55,167 nt of DNA from a bacterium (GTDB lineage: Bacteria > Actinomycetota > Thermoleophilia > Solirubrobacterales > Solirubrobacteraceae): assembly GCA_021323635.1 (NCBI GenBank), contig JAJPKQ010000005.1, positions 1-55,167 on the forward strand, in the 5' to 3' direction. Each line of letters begins with the position of its first letter. The first letter of the stretch is position 1. Shown in pieces: positions 23,878-35,099 of the stretch. The translations under genes were made by a program, and so were the position numbers. The notes under the pieces were generated by a model that saw only the letters and a list, made by a program, of their open reading frames with translations, was not told the DNA's origin and made no database searches.

Positions 23878-25173
23878 CTATTCGCTGGGCACGCCGCCCG
23901 TCGGCGGCGCCGGCTGGCTGCCGGTGTAGGGGGTGATCGGGGTGCCCGCGGTCGGTTCGGTCAGCAGCGGCTTGCCCGAGAGGACGATCTTGCCGCCTTC
24001 GACCCTGCCGATCTCTGCGCCGCCGTAGCCGCCGTGTTGGGTCTTCGTGTAGCGGAAGGGCACGAGCCCCGGCCCGCTCCAGGACTTGCCGCCTTCCTCG
24101 ACCGCCTTGACGATGGCTTCGCGGGTCAGGTTCTTGCCGGCGGCCTTCAGCGCCTGCACGAGCGTGTAAGCGGTCGCCATGCCATAGACGGTGTTGCCGT
24201 CAAAGGGCGTGCCGGGGTCATATTCGCTGTGGATGCGCCGGAAGAGCGCGATCCAGGGGTTGCTCGTTTCCGTGGAGGAGGGCAGGTAGTTGGTGGTGAT
24301 CGCGCCTTCGATCAGCGCCGTGCCCGAGGCCTTGCCCTTGGAGATCGTCTTCAGCAGCGCAGCGACGGTCGTCGGGTCGATGCCGACGCTCGAGACCACC
24401 AGCTGCGGGGTGTAGCCGAGCGTGAAGGCGGTCAGCTGGCCGATCGCGGTGTAGATCGGGACGGTGAAGTCGACCAGCACTTCCGCGCCCGCGGACTTGA
24501 TCGCGGTGATCTGCGCAGCCAGCGTGGTCGTGCCGGGCTCGTAGGGCTGCGTCGCGACGATGTCCTTGCTCGGCACCTCGTCGCGGATGCCCGCAAGCCC
24601 GCCGTTGCCGAAGTCGTCGTTCTGGTAGAGCACGCCGACCTTCTTGCCCGCGAAGTGCTGGGCGATGTACTGGCCGAGGATCTTGCCTTCGATCGTGTAG
24701 TTGGGCTGCCAGCCGAAGGTGTAGGGGTGTTCGGCGCCGTTGTCCCAGCACGGGCAGCCGGAGGCGACAAAGAGGTCAGGCACCTTCTCCGAGTTCAGGA
24801 AGCCGACGACCTTCGTGTGGGTGGGCGTTCCCAGCCCCTCGAAGATCCCAAAGACCTTTTCCTGGAGCACCAGCTGGTGGACGACGTTGACGGTCTGCGT
24901 CGGGTTGTATTCGTCGTTCTTGACGATCAGGTTGATCTTGCGCCCCCAGACGCCGCCGTGAGCGTTCACGTACTTGAAGAACGCGATCGAGGCCGGGGCG
25001 ATTTCGCTGTAGCCGGGCGCTGCCGGGCCCGTCAGCGGCTGATGCGTGCCGAAGGTGACGCTGGTCGGCGTCACCCCCACTGTGGAGCCCGAGGAGCCGC
25101 AGCCCACCACCGCCAGGCCGCCTGCGGCAACCGCAAGCAGCCATGCTCTGCGCTTGGACATCGAGAGACTCAT
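23878..25173 (-). CDS. livJ: Branched-chain amino acid ABC transporter, substrate-binding lipoprotein
   Basis: 431 aa. N-terminal lipoprotein signal (KRRAWLLAVAAGGLAVVGC, lipobox ending in Cys), then a type I periplasmic-binding fold: TFGTHQPLTGPAAPGYSEIAP, KINLIVKNDEYNPTQT and VASGCPCWDNG, with KVGVLYQNDDFGNGG opening lobe 2. The ATG at 25171-25173 has GGAGG 9-10 nt upstream; the longer frame is not needed. Last gene of the liv operon, 22 nt after livM. The ligand could be amino acids or small amides; LivJ-family specificity is not readable here. Confidence 0.88.
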   Translation of the reverse strand: MSLSMSKRRAWLLAVAAGGLAVVGCGSSGSTVGVTPTSVTFGTHQPLTGPAAPGYSEIAPASIAFFKYVNAHGGVWGRKINLIVKNDEYNPTQTVNVVHQLVLQEKVFGIFEGLGTPTHTKVVGFLNSEKVPDLFVASGCPCWDNGAEHPYTFGWQPNYTIEGKILGQYIAQHFAGKKVGVLYQNDDFGNGGLAGIRDEVPSKDIVATQPYEPGTTTLAAQITAIKSAGAEVLVDFTVPIYTAIGQLTAFTLGYTPQLVVSSVGIDPTTVAALLKTISKGKASGTALIEGAITTNYLPSSTETSNPWIALFRRIHSEYDPGTPFDGNTVYGMATAYTLVQALKAAGKNLTREAIVKAVEEGGKSWSGPGLVPFRYTKTQHGGYGGAEIGRVEGGKIVLSGKPLLTEPTAGTPITPYTGSQPAPPTGGVPSE

Positions 25174-25195
25174 TTTATGCTGCCTCCATTTCTGT

Positions 25196-26236
25196 TTACT
25201 TGGCCGGATTTGACTGTGTGACACTGTGGCGTGAGGAATACGCCCGCTTCAAAAGACCCGACAGCTGCCGCAGCCCGGCCTGGATGCCACCAGGCCACAG
25301 GAGCATTGCGACAATCAGCATAACTCCGTAGATCGCAAGCGGCAGGTTTGCCGCGACATTGCCCGACAGCGAGAGCGACTGCGCGATGTCATGGCTCCAG
25401 TTGGGGAGCAGGACGAGCAGCGCCGCCGCCCAGAAGGCGCCCCACAGCGACCCGACCCCGCCGATCACCGCGGCGGCAAAGATGCGCAGCGAGAGTTCCA
25501 GTGGAAACGCTCCCGGCTGGGCGAGCTGCAGGACGACGGTCGCCAGCCCGCCGCCAAGCCCAGCGCACGCTGCGCTGAGCACAAACGCCACCGTCTGGGT
25601 GCGTCCGACGTGGCAGCCGCAGAGCGCCGCGGCAACCTCATCGTCGCGCACCGCCCGCAGCGCGCGGCCGGCGCCCGAGCGTGTCATGTTGTAGATGAAG
25701 AACAGCGCCGCCAGCGCCCCCAGGCCGGCGATCCACGCCAGGTAGCGCTGCGGCGGAAAGCTCGAGCCCAGGAACGAGGGCGGCGCGGGCGGGTCGATCA
25801 CAAGCCCGTTTTCGCCTCCCAGCGTTTCCGGGAAGCGATTGCCGATCTGCGGCAGCGCTACCGCGAGGGTCAGGGTGACGCCGGCGAGATACGGCCCCTG
25901 CAGGCGCGAGGCCGCCGCGCCCAGCACCGCGCCCACCAGCGCACTGACGGCGGTGGCCGCCGCCAGTGCCCCTACCAGCGGCCAGTGCTCGTCGGCGACG
26001 AGCAGCGCGACCGCGTACGCCCCGACCGCCATGAACGCCCCGTGGCCCAGCGAGATCTTGCCGCCGAAGCCGATCAGCACGCTCAGGCCGATCAGGGCTG
26101 CGAAGTAGTAGGCGCCGTCGGCAAGCTGCAGGTCGCGATATTCGCCGACCAATGAGGAGACCGCTCCGAAGGCGAGCGCCGCGAGCAGCACCACGACCGC
26201 CGCGCGCACCGCCCCGACCCGCGCGAGCGCCCTCAT
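25196..26236 (-). CDS. livM: Branched-chain amino acid ABC transporter permease LivM
   Basis: 346 aa, about nine TM segments. Family signature GFGGKISLGHGAFMAVGAYAVAL in the N-terminal half and RAVRDDEVAAALCGCHVGRTQ, the cytoplasmic loop contacting the ATPases, in the second half. ATG overlaps the livH stop (ATGA). The C-terminal residues after the last helix are basic. Confidence 0.92.
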   Translation of the reverse strand: MRALARVGAVRAAVVVLLAALAFGAVSSLVGEYRDLQLADGAYYFAALIGLSVLIGFGGKISLGHGAFMAVGAYAVALLVADEHWPLVGALAAATAVSALVGAVLGAAASRLQGPYLAGVTLTLAVALPQIGNRFPETLGGENGLVIDPPAPPSFLGSSFPPQRYLAWIAGLGALAALFFIYNMTRSGAGRALRAVRDDEVAAALCGCHVGRTQTVAFVLSAACAGLGGGLATVVLQLAQPGAFPLELSLRIFAAAVIGGVGSLWGAFWAAALLVLLPNWSHDIAQSLSLSGNVAANLPLAIYGVMLIVAMLLWPGGIQAGLRQLSGLLKRAYSSRHSVTQSNPAK

Positions 26237-27111
26237 ACGCGCCGCTCCCTGCTGGCCGCGAAGATGCCTGTCGGGCGCAGCATCAGCGTCAGCAGCAGCA
26301 TCGCCAGCGCGGCAAGCGGCGCCAGCGCTTCGCCCTCATACCCGGAGACATAGGAGAGCACGAGGCCGATCAGCACGCCACCGACAATCGCGCCGAGCGG
26401 GCTCTCCAAGCCGCCGAGCACAGCCGCGGTGAAGGCAAAGATCAGGATCGGGTCAAAATTCGACGGGCCGACGAACGTGGAGGGGGCCACAAGCGCCCCG
26501 GCAAGCGCGCCGACGCCCGCGGCAAGCGCCCAGCCGATCGTGAACATCCGTCCCACGCGCACGCCGAGCAGGCGCGCGACCTCCGGGGCGAATGCCGCCG
26601 CGCGCAGCTTCAGGCCAAGGCTCGTGTAGCGGAAGAGCGCCCCCAGCGCGAGCGCGACGAGCGCCACCACGCAGACGATGAAGGTGCTGTTGGGCGAGAA
26701 CAGGATCCGCGTGTGCCCGACCTCATAGCCCTGGATCGAGAAGGCCGCCGGAAAGGCGCGCGGCGTGTCGCTCCAGATCATCCCCGCGAGGGCCTCCAGG
26801 AAGACAAGCAGCCCGAGCGTGACGATCACCGCGTTGATCGGCGGCGCCGACTCCACGCGTCGGATCAGCACAAGCTCGGTCAGCGCGCCAAAGACAAGCC
26901 CCGCCGCCACCGCCACGACCAGCGCCAGCCAATAGGGATTGCCCGCTTCCACGAGCGCCGCGGCGATGTATGTGGTGATCATCAGCATCGCCCCCTGCGC
27001 GAAGTTGACGATCCGCGTCGCCCGCCAGATCAGCACGAGCGCCAGCGCGACCGCCGCGTAGATCGCCCCGTTCGAGATGCCGCTCAATGTCAGATCGATG
27101 AATTGCGTCAT
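26233..27111 (-). CDS. livH: Branched-chain amino acid ABC transporter permease LivH
   Basis: 292 aa, eight or so TM helices. LSGISNGAIYAAVALALVLIWRATRIVNFAQGAMLMI is the LivH N-terminal signature region (about residues 8-45), and VLGGLESPLGAIVGGVLIGL is near the C terminus. Starts 5 nt after livF and overlaps livM by 4 bp. Forms the membrane heterodimer with LivM. Confidence 0.93.
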   Translation of the reverse strand: MTQFIDLTLSGISNGAIYAAVALALVLIWRATRIVNFAQGAMLMITTYIAAALVEAGNPYWLALVVAVAAGLVFGALTELVLIRRVESAPPINAVIVTLGLLVFLEALAGMIWSDTPRAFPAAFSIQGYEVGHTRILFSPNSTFIVCVVALVALALGALFRYTSLGLKLRAAAFAPEVARLLGVRVGRMFTIGWALAAGVGALAGALVAPSTFVGPSNFDPILIFAFTAAVLGGLESPLGAIVGGVLIGLVLSYVSGYEGEALAPLAALAMLLLTLMLRPTGIFAASRERRV

Positions 27112-27116
27112 TGCAG

Positions 27117-27818
27117 CTAGTAGCCGAGGTAGGCGTGGAGAAGCTCGTGCTCCCTGGCAAGCTGCTCAGGCGTCTCGCTGGCGACAACATGGCCTAAGTC
27201 GAGCACGAGCGCATGATCTGCGATCGAGAGCGCGCTGCGCGCGTTCTGCTCCACCAGCAGCACCGCGATGCGCCGCTCCTCGCAGAGCTCGCGCACGAGG
27301 CCCATGATCTGGGCGACGATCAGCGGCGCAAGGCCCAGCGATGGCTCATCCAAGAGCAGCGCCTTCGGCGCCGCCATCAGCGCCCGGCCGATCGAGAGCA
27401 TCTGGCGCTCGCCGCCGGAGAGCGAGGCTGCCGGCTCGCTGCGACGTGCGCGCAGGGGTGGAAAGAGCTCGTAGATCGCCTCGATGCCATCACCGCGCCG
27501 CGCGCCACGCGCCAGCGCGCCCAGGCGCAGGTTCTCCGCAACCGTCAGCTCCGCGATCACCCCCCGGCCCTCGGGCACGTGGAGCAGACCGAGGCGGACG
27601 ATCTCCTCGACGCCTGCCGCGGTGATCTCCCGCCCGTCGAGCGCGACGCGGCCGGCGCGCGGCCGCTTGAGCCCGGAGATCGCGCGCAGGAGGGTCGTCT
27701 TGCCCGCTCCGTTGGCTCCCAGGACCGCCGTCACCGATCCCGCGGCCGCCTGCAGGCTGACGCCGTCAAGCGCGCGGATCGCCCCGTACTCGCAGACCAG
27801 ATCCTGCACCTCAAGCAT
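27117..27818 (-). CDS. livF: Branched-chain amino acid ABC transporter ATPase LivF
   Basis: 233 aa. Walker A GANGAGKTTLL, signature LSGGERQMLSIGRALM and Walker B ALLLDEPSLGLAP, followed by the LivF-type VLLVEQNARSALSIADHALVL. ATG at 27816-27818 (MLEVQDLVCEYG); the frame runs 15 codons further upstream without support. Overlaps livG by 8 bp. Confidence 0.93.
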   Translation of the reverse strand: MLEVQDLVCEYGAIRALDGVSLQAAAGSVTAVLGANGAGKTTLLRAISGLKRPRAGRVALDGREITAAGVEEIVRLGLLHVPEGRGVIAELTVAENLRLGALARGARRGDGIEAIYELFPPLRARRSEPAASLSGGERQMLSIGRALMAAPKALLLDEPSLGLAPLIVAQIMGLVRELCEERRIAVLLVEQNARSALSIADHALVLDLGHVVASETPEQLAREHELLHAYLGY

Positions 27819-28722
27819 CGCCGGGGCCCTCTCCCTCTCTCCGCCGCGCCTGCGCCTGCGCACGAGCGCCCGGCGCAGCCGCCTCCTCGCCCAGATAGGC
27901 GGTTATCACGCGCGGGTCGCGGCGCACCGTCGCGGCATCACCGGCCGCAATCACACGCCCGAAGTCAAGCGCCACGAGCCGTTCGCAGACGTGCGCCACA
28001 AACTCCATGTGGTGATCGACAAGCATCACCGCCACTGCGCCGCGCAGCCCGTGCAGCAGCTCCACGAGCTGCTCGAGCTCGCCCGCATCGAGCCCGCCCG
28101 CGGGCTCATCGAGCAGCAGCAGCTGCGGCTCCCCGACGAGCGCACGCGCAAGCGCGACGCGCTTCTGGCTGGCGTAGGGGAGGCTGCCGGGCATCCGCTC
28201 GGCTAGATCGGCGCAGCCCAGGCGCGCAAGGGCGTCAAGCGCCCGCGCTCGCAGGCTCTCCTCCTCGCGCGCGCTGCGGGGCAGACCCAGCAGCGAGCCC
28301 ACCCAGCCGCTGGAGCGAAAGCGCTCGGCTCCCACCATCACGTTCTCGAGCACGGTGAGCCCGGAGAAGAGCCCGACGCCCTGCAGCGTGCGGGCGATGC
28401 CATGGCGGATCAGCCGGTCGGTGCGCACGCGCCGAAGCGCCTCGCCGCGCCAGATGATGCGCCCCTGCTGGGGACGGACGAACCCGCAGATCGCGTTGAA
28501 GAGCGTCGTCTTGCCGGCACCGTTGGGCCCGATCACGCCAAGCGCCTCGCCGGGCGCGATCGCGATCGACACCTCCTCGAGCGCGACCACGCCGCCGAAG
28601 CGAACGCTCAGGCCCTCGACGGCAAGCAGCGATCCGGCGCCCGCAGGCGCAGGTGCAGACGCGGGCCGATCGCCTGCGCTCACGGAACCCGATGCAGCGG
28701 CCACATCCCGACTGGCCTCCAT
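27811..28722 (-). CDS. livG: Branched-chain amino acid ABC transporter ATPase LivG
   Basis: 303 aa. An Ala/Pro-rich leader of about 30 residues precedes LLAVEGLSVRFGG. Walker A is GPNGAGKTTLF, the signature helix is degenerate (LPYASQKRVALARAL, as common in LivG) and Walker B is LLLLDEPAGGLD; then VDHHMEF. First gene of the operon, so energising subunits are made first and the binding protein last. The 124 bp upstream contain TAGGAT 7 nt before the ATG, a weak -10 compatible with a leaderless mRNA. Confidence 0.92.
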   Translation of the reverse strand: MEASRDVAAASGSVSAGDRPASAPAPAGAGSLLAVEGLSVRFGGVVALEEVSIAIAPGEALGVIGPNGAGKTTLFNAICGFVRPQQGRIIWRGEALRRVRTDRLIRHGIARTLQGVGLFSGLTVLENVMVGAERFRSSGWVGSLLGLPRSAREEESLRARALDALARLGCADLAERMPGSLPYASQKRVALARALVGEPQLLLLDEPAGGLDAGELEQLVELLHGLRGAVAVMLVDHHMEFVAHVCERLVALDFGRVIAAGDAATVRRDPRVITAYLGEEAAAPGARAQAQARRREGEGPGDA

Positions 28723-30013: not shown

Positions 30014-30829
30014 TCAGTGGGCAGGCGAGCGCGCAGGAGCGCTGCGCGCCACAGCGCGGGCAGAGCGCATGCGCCAAGCGTCATGCAGTGCAAGCGCCCC
30101 GGCAACGGGAACGGTCGCGGGCAGCTCATGGACGACAAAGAAGAGCAGGTCGAAGAGCAGGGCGAGCACCGCCACCGCGATCGCCCCCCGCAGCTGCGCT
30201 GCGCCTCCGAAGTGCAGCACCAGCAGACCCCCGAGCACGCCTGCGACAAGGAGGTCTCCGTAGCCCATCACCGCGCTGCCGAAGGCCTCTGCCTGAAGCC
30301 GCGGCAGCTGCGCGGGCGGACGGACCGCGTTAAGGACGCTGTTTGGCCGCTGCAGCTCTTCGACGATAATCAGCGTCGTATCGACTGCAGCCATCGCATA
30401 GATTCCGAGCGCCAGCGCGCGCCGCGGCGCAAGCAGCGCCAGCAGGCCGCCGAGCGCTGCGCAGCTGAGCGCATCGAGAGCGCCGCCGGCAAGCTGAGCC
30501 GCCGGGGATCCCCTGCCCACCCAGGCCAGCGCAAAGAGCGCGCACGCAAGCAGGGCCGCCAGCCGCCGGCCGCCAAGCATCACGATCGCCACGCCGGCCA
30601 GGAGCGGAACGGCAATCAGGGCAAGATAGGTGAGCGCCTCGGCGCTCTGGGCGAAGGCGCGCACCGCAACCACGAAGAGGAGCACCGAGAGCGCCGGAAT
30701 CGCTGCAAACGCCGCGCGCGGACGCCCGATGCGCGCGTGCAGCGCCTGCGGTATGCGCACCAACGCGACCGTCGCGCCCTGCAGCAGCGAGAGCACGCCG
30801 ATCGACAGCCAGAAGGGAAGCACGTCCAC
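30014..30829 (-). CDS. Presenilin/SPP-like (A22, GxGD) intramembrane aspartyl protease homologue
   Basis: 271 aa with nine predictable hydrophobic segments (about 5-25, 40-60, 65-86, 90-104, 115-134, 139-158, 186-207, 213-233, 236-252). Three landmarks of the GxGD intramembrane aspartyl proteases fall where they should. An Asp is in TM6 (AAVD150TTLIIV), MGYGD192LLVAG is in TM7, and LPATVP (236-241) at TM9 is where the family has the PAL motif. The TM6 motif lacks the usual Tyr before Asp and PAL is PAT, so activity is unproven. Such proteins are mostly archaeal or eukaryotic and cleave TM segments. Stands alone, divergent from the deacetylase gene. Confidence 0.62.
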   Translation of the reverse strand: MDVLPFWLSIGVLSLLQGATVALVRIPQALHARIGRPRAAFAAIPALSVLLFVVAVRAFAQSAEALTYLALIAVPLLAGVAIVMLGGRRLAALLACALFALAWVGRGSPAAQLAGGALDALSCAALGGLLALLAPRRALALGIYAMAAVDTTLIIVEELQRPNSVLNAVRPPAQLPRLQAEAFGSAVMGYGDLLVAGVLGGLLVLHFGGAAQLRGAIAVAVLALLFDLLFFVVHELPATVPVAGALALHDAWRMRSARAVARSAPARSPAH

Positions 30830-30909
30830 CTGCGCATTCTCGCCGCTGCGCCGCGCACGCGCGGCGGGCGGCCAAGCCGTTACGCTGAGCCCGCACAGCT
30901 GCTGCCCAC

Positions 30910-31836
30910 ATGCACACTCCGCTCAGCAACAAGTCAAAGGAGACAACCCGCTCCCGCCCGGGGGGCGCAACCAGCGCCAGGGTCCGCGCTCGTCGCCGGC
31001 TGGCGGGCGCAACGGCGCTGTTGATCCTTGCGCTGCCGATCGGCGCCGTGGTTGCGCTGGGCCAGCGCAGCCCCCATGCGCGCCCGCCTGCGCGCCACAG
31101 TCGCGCGAGCGCAGAGCGCCAGCGGCGCTCGGCGCCGCTCTCCTCGCGCGCTGAAGAAGAAGCTGCGATCAACCACGTTCTCTCCTACACCCCGGCGGTG
31201 GTCGAAGGCGGTCATCGCGGCAATGAGGTCGCGCTGACCTTCGACGACGGGCCCGGCCCTTACACCAACGAACTGGTCGCGACCCTCGACCGCCTGCACG
31301 TGCACGCGACCTTCTTTGCGATCGGCATGATGGAGCGCTGGTTCTCAAGCGGGACGCGCGCAGAGGTCGCAGCGGGCGATGCGGTCGGCGATCACACGGA
31401 GACGCACCCGATGATGGCGACCCTCTCCGCCTCCGCCCAGCGCGAAGAGCTCACCGAACAGATGGCGCGCGTGGAAGTCGCGGGCGCTCCCCGCCCGCGC
31501 CTCTTCCGCCCGCCCTACGGCTCATTTGACGCCACCACCTTCAAGGTCCTGCGCTCGCTGCACCTGCTGATGGTTCTGTGGTCGACGGACACCGCCGACT
31601 ACACCCTGCCCGGCACGCAGGCGATCGTGCAGCGCGCGCTCGCAGGCGCCCACCCGGGGGCGATCATCCTGATGCACGACGGCGGCGGCAACCGCGCCCA
31701 GACGATCGCCGCGCTGCCGGCGATCGTCGCGGGGCTGCGCAGGCGCGGCCTCGTGCCCGTGACGGTGCCGCAGCTGCTGCGCGACGATCCACCGCCGCCG
31801 GGCCGGCCGATCCCGACCAGCCTCGCGGGCGACTAG
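30910..31836 (+). CDS. Membrane-anchored polysaccharide deacetylase (NodB/CE4)
   Basis: 308 aa. N-terminal basic stretch then a TM anchor (LAGATALLILALPIGAVVAL), so the enzyme faces outside. The NodB domain covers about 100-290: TFDDGPG (Asp113 metal ligand), DHTETHP (His162 and His166), RPPYGSFD, WSTDTADY and MHDGGGNR. It removes acetyl groups from peptidoglycan or an exopolysaccharide. The 3' end overlaps the convergent NRAMP gene by 4 bp. Confidence 0.92.
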   Translation: MHTPLSNKSKETTRSRPGGATSARVRARRRLAGATALLILALPIGAVVALGQRSPHARPPARHSRASAERQRRSAPLSSRAEEEAAINHVLSYTPAVVEGGHRGNEVALTFDDGPGPYTNELVATLDRLHVHATFFAIGMMERWFSSGTRAEVAAGDAVGDHTETHPMMATLSASAQREELTEQMARVEVAGAPRPRLFRPPYGSFDATTFKVLRSLHLLMVLWSTDTADYTLPGTQAIVQRALAGAHPGAIILMHDGGGNRAQTIAALPAIVAGLRRRGLVPVTVPQLLRDDPPPPGRPIPTSLAGD

Positions 31837-33521
31837 CGACCGATCTGGGTTGCCTTCACCACCATCAGAGCGATCGCGATCACGAGGTAGAGCCTGAGCA
31901 CCATCATCGCCGCGCGGCGAGCGGGTGACCAGCGCACGGGCTCAAGCAGCGCCAGCGGCGGCATCGTCCAGCTGCGGCGCTCCGCGGCGGTGTACTCCTC
32001 GGCGATCTGAACACGCGGTCGGCGCAGGTAAGAGACCAGCCCGACCAGCGCCAGCCCGACCAGCGCCAGCGCCGAGATCGCACCGACGAGGGTCGTCACG
32101 TTCACGCTTGGGAAGACCGTCGCGACGACAAGCACCAGCGAGAGGCCGACGAGGACCGTCACGATCAGGCTTGCGATCGCGTTCAGCCAGGGAGGGTTCA
32201 CCCACGGCCCGAGCACCTCGCGGTCGTTGCAGAGCAGCAGCAGGAAGACGGTGGCGCTCGGCAGCAGCACGCCGGCGAGCGCCTGCACCGCCTCGGTGAT
32301 GACCCCCAGCGGAGCCGATGGGATCAGCACGATGCCCATCGCAGCCAGCACCAGCGCCCCGAAGCTCGAGTAGAAGAAGCGCGCTTCGCGGAAGCTGCGA
32401 TGCAGCGAGTGGTGCAGCCCGAAGACGTCGCCGAAGGCGTAGGAGGTTGAGAGCGTCACCGCCGCAGCGCCGATCAGCGAGGCATTCAGGAGCACGATCG
32501 CAAGCAGCGCGCCGGCTGCCGAGCCGAGGTTGTGTGCCAGTGCATGCGCGGTCACCGCCGCGTTGATGAAATGGCCGATGCCGCGCGCGCCGCCGAGGCC
32601 GAACGCGGCGATGCTCATCAGCGCACCCGCGCCGATCACCACCACGAAGGCGCCGATCACCGTGTCCGCGCGCTCGTAGTTGATCCAGCGCGTGGTGATG
32701 CGCTTGTCGATCACGTTGGACTGCTGGAAGAAGAGCTGCCAGGGAGCGACGGTCGTGCCCACGATCGCGATGATCAGCAGCACCGCGCTCGAGGTGACGC
32801 CGCCGGCGATGCCGGGAGCAAAGGAATGCGTCGCGATCGCGCCCGCCTGCGGGTGGGCGAGGAAGAAGAGCGGGATCACCAGCAGCGATCCGGCGATGAA
32901 GACAAGCATCGTTCGCTCCCAGCTGCGGAAGCCGCCGCCGGCGGTGATCGCAAAGAGGGCGCAGGCGGCGACCGGCGCGGCGATGTAGCGGGAGATCCCG
33001 AAGTACTCGAACACCAAGCTCACGCCGATGAACTCGGTGACGATCGTCAGGAAGTTGAGGATGAAGAGGTCGCCGATCGAGAAGAACGACCAGAAGCGCC
33101 CGAAGCGCTCCTTGATCAGGCGCCCGTGACCGACCCCCGTCACCGCACCAAGCCTCACAACCATCTCCTGGTTGACGATCAGGACCGGTATCAGCAGGAT
33201 CAACGTCCAGAGCAGCGTCGGGCCATATTCCTGCCCCGCCTGCAGGTAGGTCGAGACGCCGCCAGCGTCATTGTCGCCGACCATCACGATCAGCCCAGGG
33301 CCGATGATCGCCAGCAGCGCCAGCAGCCTGCCCCGGAAGCTGCGCCGCTCGCCGCTGTCACGCTGGCTGAGCGTTCCGAGCGCGCCGCGGATGTCGCCGA
33401 CGTGCGCCTCGTCGAGCACCGGCGGCACGCCCGGCGGCGGTGGGGAGATGTGCGCGCGGGCGTGCGCCTCTGCGACTGTACGGGTGTCGTCCTTCATCGT
33501 CCTCTGCTCGCTCAAATCCAT
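31833..33521 (-). CDS. Second NRAMP-family transporter, Mg-transporter-like metal site
   Basis: 562 aa from ATG 33521 (ATG 33497, MKDDTRTVAE, is a possible alternative). N-terminal cytosolic tail of about 70 residues, 11-12 TM segments and a C-terminal extension with more helices. TM1 is GPGLIVMVGDNDAGGVST: Asp85 is retained and Asn of DPGN is Gly88. TM6 is TTVAPWQLFFQQS, so Met of the MPHN region is Ala. In canonical NRAMPs that Met discriminates against Mg and Ca, so this branch may carry Mg. Upstream on the same strand lies a PRC/MgtE_N/CBS protein, which supports Mg. Related to the NRAMP at 19.6-21.0 kb. Confidence 0.88.
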   Translation of the reverse strand: MDLSEQRTMKDDTRTVAEAHARAHISPPPPGVPPVLDEAHVGDIRGALGTLSQRDSGERRSFRGRLLALLAIIGPGLIVMVGDNDAGGVSTYLQAGQEYGPTLLWTLILLIPVLIVNQEMVVRLGAVTGVGHGRLIKERFGRFWSFFSIGDLFILNFLTIVTEFIGVSLVFEYFGISRYIAAPVAACALFAITAGGGFRSWERTMLVFIAGSLLVIPLFFLAHPQAGAIATHSFAPGIAGGVTSSAVLLIIAIVGTTVAPWQLFFQQSNVIDKRITTRWINYERADTVIGAFVVVIGAGALMSIAAFGLGGARGIGHFINAAVTAHALAHNLGSAAGALLAIVLLNASLIGAAAVTLSTSYAFGDVFGLHHSLHRSFREARFFYSSFGALVLAAMGIVLIPSAPLGVITEAVQALAGVLLPSATVFLLLLCNDREVLGPWVNPPWLNAIASLIVTVLVGLSLVLVVATVFPSVNVTTLVGAISALALVGLALVGLVSYLRRPRVQIAEEYTAAERRSWTMPPLALLEPVRWSPARRAAMMVLRLYLVIAIALMVVKATQIGR

Positions 33522-33669
33522 CTGGCCGAAGATGCCCTCCGCGTGAAGGAGATGTGAACAGGGCCCCTGCGCCTGCGCGGCGGCGCCCACAGCGCCGGCG
33601 TGCGCAGCCCTCGCCGGGGCGCCCGAAGAGCCTCAGGCCGCAGACTTGATCCGGCGATCGCCTGCTGCG

Positions 33670-33750
33670 CTAGCTGCGCGCGAGCATGAGGAAGTGCGCG
33701 GCCGGCCCCGTACTTCGCGGAAGATCTTCGTGTTCCATGCGGGTCTCCAT
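33670..33750 (-). CDS. Possible 26-codon leader ORF upstream of NRAMP
   Basis: ATG at 33748-33750 with AAGAGGA 9 nt upstream opens a 26-residue frame (METRMEHEDLPR...) ending in TAG inside the 318-bp gap between the MgtE_N/CBS gene and the NRAMP gene. No homologue recognised. It may be a leader peptide or chance. Confidence 0.25.
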   Translation of the reverse strand: METRMEHEDLPRSTGPAAHFLMLARS

Positions 33751-33800
33751 CGCTTGCATTCCTCTTGCGTGCGCCCGTCTGACGGCCGCACGGCTACTCT

Positions 33801-33826
33801 AACAAAGCGCTGCCACGGCGGCAGCG
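33801..33826 (-). terminator. Candidate terminator after MgtE_N/CBS gene
   Basis: On the minus strand CGCTGCC-gccgt-GGCAGCG (7-bp stem) is followed by CTTTGTT, 14 nt after the stop of the PRC/MgtE_N/CBS gene. It would separate that transcript from the NRAMP gene. The rest of the 33522-33839 gap shows no known riboswitch core. Confidence 0.45.
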
Positions 33827-33839
33827 GCGCTATCGCTGC

Positions 33840-35099
33840 TCAGTCGCGCGCGACGCCAAAGCGCCGACGCCAGCCTGCGGGCAGCGTCAGCTCGAGGACG
33901 TCATCGACGCTGACCACCCCGACCGCGCGGCCCTCCTCGTCGACCACCGGCAGCAGGATCAGGTCATAGTCGGTCATCGTCCGTGCGACCTGCGTGACGT
34001 CCGCATCGGTGCCGACGGACACCGGCTCGCGGCTGACCAGCTCGGCCAGCGCAACGCCCTGCGGGGCGCGCAGGACCCGCACCAGATCGATCGAGCCCGA
34101 CAGGCGTCCGTGCTCATCGTGCAGCAGCACCACCACCGATGACTCCGGCGAGGTCTCGCTCTTGCGCACTCGCTCCAGTGCCTCGCCCGCGCTGATGCGC
34201 TCGTCTAGCAGCACCAGCTCTGGGCTCATCAGCCCACCGGCGGTCGAGGGGTTGTAGCCGAGCAGCGCCTTCAGGCGCCGCTGCTTGGTCGCCGGCAGCA
34301 GCGCCAGCACGCGCACGCGACGCTCCTGGTCCATCTCCTCGATCAGATCGACCGCGTCGTCGGGGGCCATCCGCGCGAGCATGCCAGCCACCTCCTCATC
34401 CGAGCGCTCGCGGATCAGCTCCAGCTGATGGGCGACGTCGAGCTCCTCGAAGACGTCTGCCTCAAGCTCGCGGTCACGCCCGAGCGCCTCGATGATCTCC
34501 TCGCCCTCCTCATGCGAGGCGGCTTCCACGAGGTCGGCGATCTCCGCCGGATGGAGATTCGCAAGCTTGCGGTGGTAGAAGCGCAGGCGCATCGTCGGCA
34601 CATGGCCGACAAAGGGGTCCATGTCGCTCCAGTCAAGAAACGGTCGCGTGCCGAGAAGGTGGCGAACGCGCCGCGGCAAGGCGCGCCGCAGTCGCGCACG
34701 AAAGCTCTCATCGACACCGACCAGGCGCCACCAGCCGTCGATGCAGGCAAGCTCGATCTCCCGCGCACGCACCAGGCGCGGAGGCTCGGAGCCGATGTTC
34801 ACGAGCGATCTATCGAGCACGTCCTGAGCCAGCAGCACCTCGCCCTCGCGCCTTTCAAAGCGCCGCACGCTCAGCTTCTCCTCAGAGAGTCGCACAGCTC
34901 CTGCAGAGAGCTCGGCGATGCGATCGATGGCGACGAACAGCTCGCGGCCGCCGATGCGCGCCTTCAGTCCCGTGACCGGCGGATAGCTCTCATCCGCGAG
35001 CCGCACGATCAGGTCCTCCACGCGCCCCAGCCGCTCGCCCTTCGGGTCGAGGAGGGGTCCACGCAGGATCGAGGTCAGGTGCAGAACCGTTGGTGGCAC
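33840..35099 (-). CDS. PRC-barrel / MgtE_N / CBS cytosolic protein
   Basis: 419 aa without TM segments. Two PRC-barrel-like modules (about 5-80 and 90-165), then an MgtE N-terminal superhelical domain (about 170-290: LHPAEIADLVEAA, EEVAGMLARMAPDDAVDLIEEM, LLGYNPSTAGGLMSPE) and a CBS pair (about 290-410: SREPVSVGTDADVTQVA, LLPVVDEEGRAVGVVSVDDVLE). It is the Mg-sensing cytosolic half of an MgtE channel without the channel. Lying directly upstream of the NRAMP gene, it may gate or regulate that transporter in trans (inference). GTG start at 35097-35099. Confidence 0.85.
   Translation of the reverse strand: MPPTVLHLTSILRGPLLDPKGERLGRVEDLIVRLADESYPPVTGLKARIGGRELFVAIDRIAELSAGAVRLSEEKLSVRRFERREGEVLLAQDVLDRSLVNIGSEPPRLVRAREIELACIDGWWRLVGVDESFRARLRRALPRRVRHLLGTRPFLDWSDMDPFVGHVPTMRLRFYHRKLANLHPAEIADLVEAASHEEGEEIIEALGRDRELEADVFEELDVAHQLELIRERSDEEVAGMLARMAPDDAVDLIEEMDQERRVRVLALLPATKQRRLKALLGYNPSTAGGLMSPELVLLDERISAGEALERVRKSETSPESSVVVLLHDEHGRLSGSIDLVRVLRAPQGVALAELVSREPVSVGTDADVTQVARTMTDYDLILLPVVDEEGRAVGVVSVDDVLELTLPAGWRRRFGVARD

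Follow-up and report, generated by a model that had tools for sequence, protein, structure and literature searches.

Here we describe a gene for a predicted presenilin/signal peptide peptidase-fold membrane protein in a 55,167-nucleotide stretch of DNA from a soil bacterium of the Solirubrobacteraceae (Actinomycetota; Thermoleophilia; Solirubrobacterales), positions 1 to 55,167 of contig JAJPKQ010000005.1 in GenBank assembly GCA_021323635.1, to which we refer as the window. Presenilin is the enzyme that makes the amyloid of Alzheimer's disease, and signal peptide peptidase (SPP) is its sister enzyme. The original prediction, made from the letters of the window, had placed an open reading frame (ORF) at 30014–30829; the ORF exists and lies on the minus strand, with a GTG start at 30829, a stop codon at 30014–30016 and 271 encoded amino acids (aa), which are predicted to form nine transmembrane (TM) helices. 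Since the frame is intact in 106 non-redundant homologues and codons differ most at their third position (0.34, 0.34 and 0.54 at positions 1, 2 and 3, respectively), we regard the minus-strand ORF as the real gene. An ORF of 335 aa runs antisense to it on the plus strand (30017–31024); this is a high-GC shadow, and similar shadows recur in relatives.

All motifs named in the original prediction are present in the protein. These are D150, the proposed first catalytic aspartate, in the TM6 motif Phi-D-x-x-x-V (30380–30382, minus strand), G189-Y-G-D192 with the proposed second catalytic aspartate at the start of TM7 (30254–30265, minus strand), and, at the N-terminal end of TM9, the turn L236-P-A-T-V-P241, the counterpart of the PAL motif (30107–30124, minus strand). 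Conservation was counted over the 106 homologues, and profile searches and loop-charge counts were made over 104 members. Both aspartates proved invariant across the relatives (106/106 each, D150 being encoded by GAC or GAT). The window protein has a perfect GxGD motif, GYGD, and across the family the two glycines are kept in 100 (G189) and 87 (G191) members; in the turn, T239 is invariant, followed by P241 (104/106), A238 (102/106) and P237 (98/106). Position 149, which precedes D150, is A, V, L, I, T or S in nearly all members, with the aspartate and the valine four residues further on (position 154, V in 93/106) retained. The divergence that had been pointed out in the window protein, VD for YD and PAT for PAL, extends across the family, which carries AD, VD, LD or ID and PAT. 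Mean column identity of the alignment is 37%, and the most distant members are 28–35% identical to the window protein; because D150, D192 and T239 stay invariant while the sequences otherwise differ so widely, the motifs are conserved far beyond chance.

The structure of the window protein was predicted with AlphaFold2 together with 22 homologues (predicted local distance difference test score, pLDDT, 90.3; predicted template modelling score, pTM, 0.89), and that of L095, a homologue from another family that is about one third identical, from a separate alignment (pLDDT 91.2, pTM 0.89). In the window model the nine hydrophobic segments recognised earlier are nine long helices (residues 6–23, 39–58, 61–84, 91–104, 109–133, 136–155, 190–207, 209–231 and 239–263), and its elements follow one another in the order TM6 with D150, TM6a, beta-hairpin, GYGD, TM7, TM8, PAT turn and TM9. 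The TM6a counterpart is a short helix after TM6 (residues 160–168; 30326–30352, minus strand), assigned by DSSP and also found in the second model, while the hairpin (residues 180–189; 30263–30292, minus strand) consists of strands 180–183 and 186–189, or 181–184 and 187–190 in the second model, and runs into GYGD. VIA-align comparison with human SPPL2a gave best values of Z 17.3 and 3.9 Å over 243 residues for the window model (to 9k93) and of Z 17.4 and 3.8 Å over 236 residues for L095. The top 20 and 24 rows, respectively, were all presenilin, SPP or the archaeal homologue PSH, with the next rows, unrelated folds, at Z 4.6 and 4.5; the window model matched most PSEN1 chains at Z 15.5–17.0 and PSH (4hyg) at Z 12.3. 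Foldseek ranked SPPL2a, PSEN1 and PSH first for both models (best E 9e-4 for the window protein and 4e-4 for L095), the window model reaching template modelling scores (TM-scores) of 0.54–0.61. As the whole chain superposes from N- to C-terminus on SPPL2a, PSEN1 and PSH, TM6 and TM7 are placed in register in the models, and this superposition supports a pair of aspartates that may face each other; in apo PSEN1 and in FlaK the aspartates are 10.6 and 12 Å apart, respectively (PMC9282858). The nine-TM presenilin/SPP fold was found in both predicted models, the TM6 aspartate and the TM7 GxGD aspartate that characterise GxGD intramembrane aspartyl proteases are in place, and the predicted fold is that of presenilin/SPP only, so that the protease layout originally proposed agrees with the models and no different fold emerged.

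These comparisons bear on two other identities for the protein. Its Ala/Leu-rich sequence and the occurrence of some nucleotide-sugar transporters low in the Foldseek list would fit some other membrane protein, such as a multi-pass transporter, in which the motifs match by chance, but those transporters reached TM-scores of about 0.2, against 0.54–0.61 for SPPL2a, PSEN1 and PSH, and all three motifs are invariant in D150, D192 and T239, so that we consider this explanation extremely unlikely. The prepilin peptidases (A24; FlaK, PilD) share the GxGD di-aspartyl chemistry, A24 enzymes occur in bacteria, and one ordinary A24 prepilin peptidase is encoded elsewhere in the host, as a separate gene. 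Yet the A24 profile PF01478 matched none of the 104 members, the models follow presenilin/SPP over the whole chain, the first aspartate lies in TM6 and the PAT turn at TM9, which leaves an A24-type protease with a very small probability. No A24 chain stood among the structural matches listed, an absence that we do not count as evidence.

GxGD proteases of the presenilin/SPP type have been described in eukaryotes and archaea (PMC2947513, PMC9282858, PMC9263693). No bacterial one was described in the literature open to our search, which lacks most subscription papers, the main phylogenetic study among them, and the original prediction had called such enzymes little described in bacteria; one paper that uses the term 'bacterial presenilin' apparently does so as loose wording for another homologue. 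To place the family among the known enzymes, we considered topology, spacing and motifs. Net charges alternate, being +2.8, +1.7, +0.5 and +2.0 for loops L1, L3, L5 and L7 and +0.5 for the C-terminus, compared with 0.0, -0.6, -0.9 and -0.9 for L2, L4, L6 and L8 on the opposite side, and lysine and arginine are more numerous in L1/L3/L5/L7 than in L2/L4/L6/L8 in 104/104 members. By the positive-inside rule, the charge-based topology is N-out/C-in, with the catalytic loops predicted to be outside. By charge, the family therefore has the orientation of the SPP subtype, that of presenilin being opposite (PMC7768045, PMC13252537). The two aspartates are 42 residues apart, compared with 46 in human SPP (D219/D265), 58 in PSH (D162/D220) and 128 in PSEN1 (D257/D385), and from loop charges and spacing taken together the protein looks SPP-like rather than presenilin-like.

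With SPP and the SPPL proteases (MEROPS A22B; human SPP, SPPL2a) the family shares the predicted fold, the TM6 aspartate, the TM7 GxGD, the PA turn at TM9 and, by charge, the N-out/C-in orientation, and its Phi-D-xxx-V matches the YDxxxV logo of human SPP (PMC13252537). It differs from them in having no detectable sequence match, in being shorter (271 aa) and without the N-terminal luminal domain, and in carrying AD or VD for YD and PAT for PAL. Archaeal PSH (MCMJR1, PF06550) resembles it as a single-gene prokaryotic enzyme with a nine-helix fold, D and GxGD, TM6a and a strand before GxGD, but has PPL, no strict PAL, where the family has PAT, and the wider aspartate spacing. In modelled substrate-bound PSH, TM6a spans residues 171–177 and a strand (213–217, A213–G217) ends in the first glycine of GLGD (PMC9282858); the hairpin at 180–189 is the predicted counterpart of this substrate-pairing strand of PSH and gamma-secretase. 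Presenilin (MEROPS A22A), the catalytic subunit of gamma-secretase, shares the predicted fold, D/GxGD/PA arrangement and TM6a, whereas the family has the opposite predicted topology, lacks the long TM6–TM7 loop and has no partner subunits that we could find. Collectively, these data suggest that the gene product is probably a nine-helix intramembrane di-aspartyl protease of presenilin/SPP fold in the SPP orientation.

Several observations weigh against this assignment. Neither the window protein nor any of the 104 members matched a Pfam or NCBIfam model above chance scores. Using hhalign, with a target composed of an approximate human SPP sequence and a stretch of SPPL2a (E 5e-19 between the two), we could align the family to this approximate SPP pair with any confidence in the GxGD segment only, GYGD falling on the GLGD of SPP (E 0.034, probability 1.5%). 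In human SPP, Y218A causes a strong loss of activity and L319A, in PAL, is severe, and these are the positions at which the family has AD, VD, LD or ID for YD and PAT for PAL; moreover, the second glycine of GxGD is leucine in 14/106 members. The gene is patchy, with a match in 119/399 Thermoleophilia genomes and in 71/215 of the good-quality ones, and is therefore not essential across the class. Finally, SppA (S49), which occurs in only 4/55 good Thermoleophilia genomes, was found in 1/28 genomes with the gene and 3/27 without it, giving no specific support for a signal-peptide role. A complementarity with SppA was accordingly rejected: with S49 near-absent irrespective of the gene, the correlation is uninformative.

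The motif substitutions raise the question of whether the protein might have kept the fold and lost proteolysis, serving instead as a scaffold, a chaperone or a channel in the membrane. The replaced tyrosine of YD and leucine of PAL and the leucine in the GxGD of one subclade would be in line with this, but strict invariance of both aspartates down to 28–35% identity would be unexpected had catalysis been lost, and we consider this explanation improbable. As to the family's standing as a putative protease family, none of the A22 Pfam models (PF06550, PF04258, PF01080) matched any of the 104 members at E<=1, a sequence search of the PDB returned no presenilin or SPP for any member, and PF06550 (archaeal SPP) found nothing in 61 Thermoleophilia and 246 Actinomycetota genomes, with Haloferax and Methanosarcina controls positive. 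The (Y/F)D motif at TM6 and the PAL motif at TM9 that mark A22 are likewise missing, PAT with its invariant T239 standing in for the latter. By profile, YD and PAL alike, the family thus falls outside the existing A22 sequence families, and the most fitting description is a new and divergent family of predicted presenilin/SPP-fold GxGD proteases from bacteria that is not contained in the Pfam A22 families. In a low-confidence full alignment to the same approximate SPP pair, D150 falls on YD, GYGD on GLGD and PA on PAL. With no support from sequence profiles, homology rests on fold and invariant motifs, and the resemblance to presenilin/SPP may formally reflect convergence.

Assuming a protease, the TM6 aspartate D150 and its TM7 partner D192, within GYGD, would activate a water molecule on the extracytoplasmic face of the membrane. 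The substrate, a TM helix, would enter from the side and unwind; the unwound segment would then pair, as a beta-strand, with the hairpin that precedes GYGD, while the PAT turn of TM9 holds it. The N-out/C-in orientation, as in SPP, predicts type II (N-in/C-out) substrates, and these would be cut near the outer face; they may be membrane-anchor helices or the signal peptides that remain once signal peptidase has cut. Since no partner gene travels with it, the enzyme probably acts alone, like SPP. Of these elements, intramembrane aspartyl proteolysis is in our view highly probable, and an SPP-like orientation toward type II substrates reasonably likely; clearance of signal-peptide remnants is a rather doubtful suggestion, for which the scarcity of SppA leaves room without being proof. 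Alternatively, the same fold and catalysis could serve, in a presenilin-like manner, the regulated intramembrane proteolysis of particular signalling proteins such as anti-sigma factors. The patchy distribution and the paralogue clades in some genomes fit such a specialised role, and the host also has M50 and rhomboid proteases, which already cover other intramembrane work. However, the gene has no consistent neighbour that encodes a regulator or an anti-sigma factor and the topology is SPP-like, not presenilin-like, and we hold regulated proteolysis to be possible but unlikely.

Two further conserved features accompany the catalytic motifs. L175-P-x-L-Q179 (30293–30307, minus strand) forms a loop motif between TM6a and the hairpin (P176 105/106, L178 102/106, Q179 99/106), and Q17 (30779–30781, minus strand) is a near-invariant polar residue in TM1 (105/106). 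Around the gene, a polysaccharide deacetylase (plus strand), an Nramp transporter (minus strand) and an MgtE_N/CBS protein (minus strand) occupy 30910–35099, and the order MgtE_N-Nramp-(deacetylase)-presenilin/SPP-fold gene-acyltransferase is restricted to the genus of the window. Outside the genus, the neighbours are PEPCK, molybdenum-cofactor (MoaA/MobA-like) or DsbD-like genes. We found no neighbour conserved beyond the genus, and the gene neighbourhood was rejected as a clue to substrates, there being no conserved partner across clades. Just downstream, at 23878–28722 on the minus strand, lies a branched-chain amino-acid-type ABC transporter cassette with an apparent substrate-binding protein, two BPD_transp_2 permeases (Pfam-checked) and two ABC ATPases.

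Within the genus of the window, 23/24 genomes carry the gene, and among 396 Actinomycetota genomes, sampled evenly, every convincing match fell within Thermoleophilia. A weak match outside the class (G149, E 0.0038) was a false positive without the motifs, presumably a TauE/SafE-like permease, as recognised by eye. Scanning the genomes of about 85,000 species of bacteria and archaea with a single peptide pattern, which more distant bacterial members could escape, we confirmed 58 loci. Almost all of them bear a Solirubrobacterales/Thermoleophilia label or that of an unplaced actinobacterial metagenome-assembled genome. Two carried deviating labels, L043 ('Chlamydiae') and L079 ('Marmoricola'), and are probably misnamed bins. 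The contig of L043, titled 'Chlamydiae bacterium', holds a Solirubrobacterales-type locus with the genus-level synteny. A search of viral contigs and plasmids found no relative. In the tree, the family divides into the clade of the window protein, a clade of paralogues that certain genomes carry as a second copy, and a more distant third clade with GW(L/G)D. G516, G588, G612, G614, G713, G736 and others each have two copies that belong to separate clades, which suggests old paralogues with separate substrates. The distant clade (L126–L136, L148–L150) has GWLD in many members, a naturally occurring form of the catalytic motif with leucine for the second glycine and the aspartate invariant.

Taken together, we tentatively propose, as a reading somewhat short of even, a presenilin/SPP-type branch that has so far been seen in Thermoleophilia only and is deep enough to be invisible to profiles, and which would clear signal peptides or type II segments where SppA, the usual bacterial enzyme, is nearly absent. 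This would give a proposed function to a protein family that is nameless in Pfam and NCBIfam. If true, GxGD presenilin-fold proteolysis would be a trait of all three domains of life, here with a PAT-type active site. A single-gene bacterial relative of 271 residues, possibly expressible in E. coli and carrying VD and PAT, would reveal which features of the active site are indispensable, would offer a simple model of both gamma-secretase and SPP, and would be informative about how the family originated.
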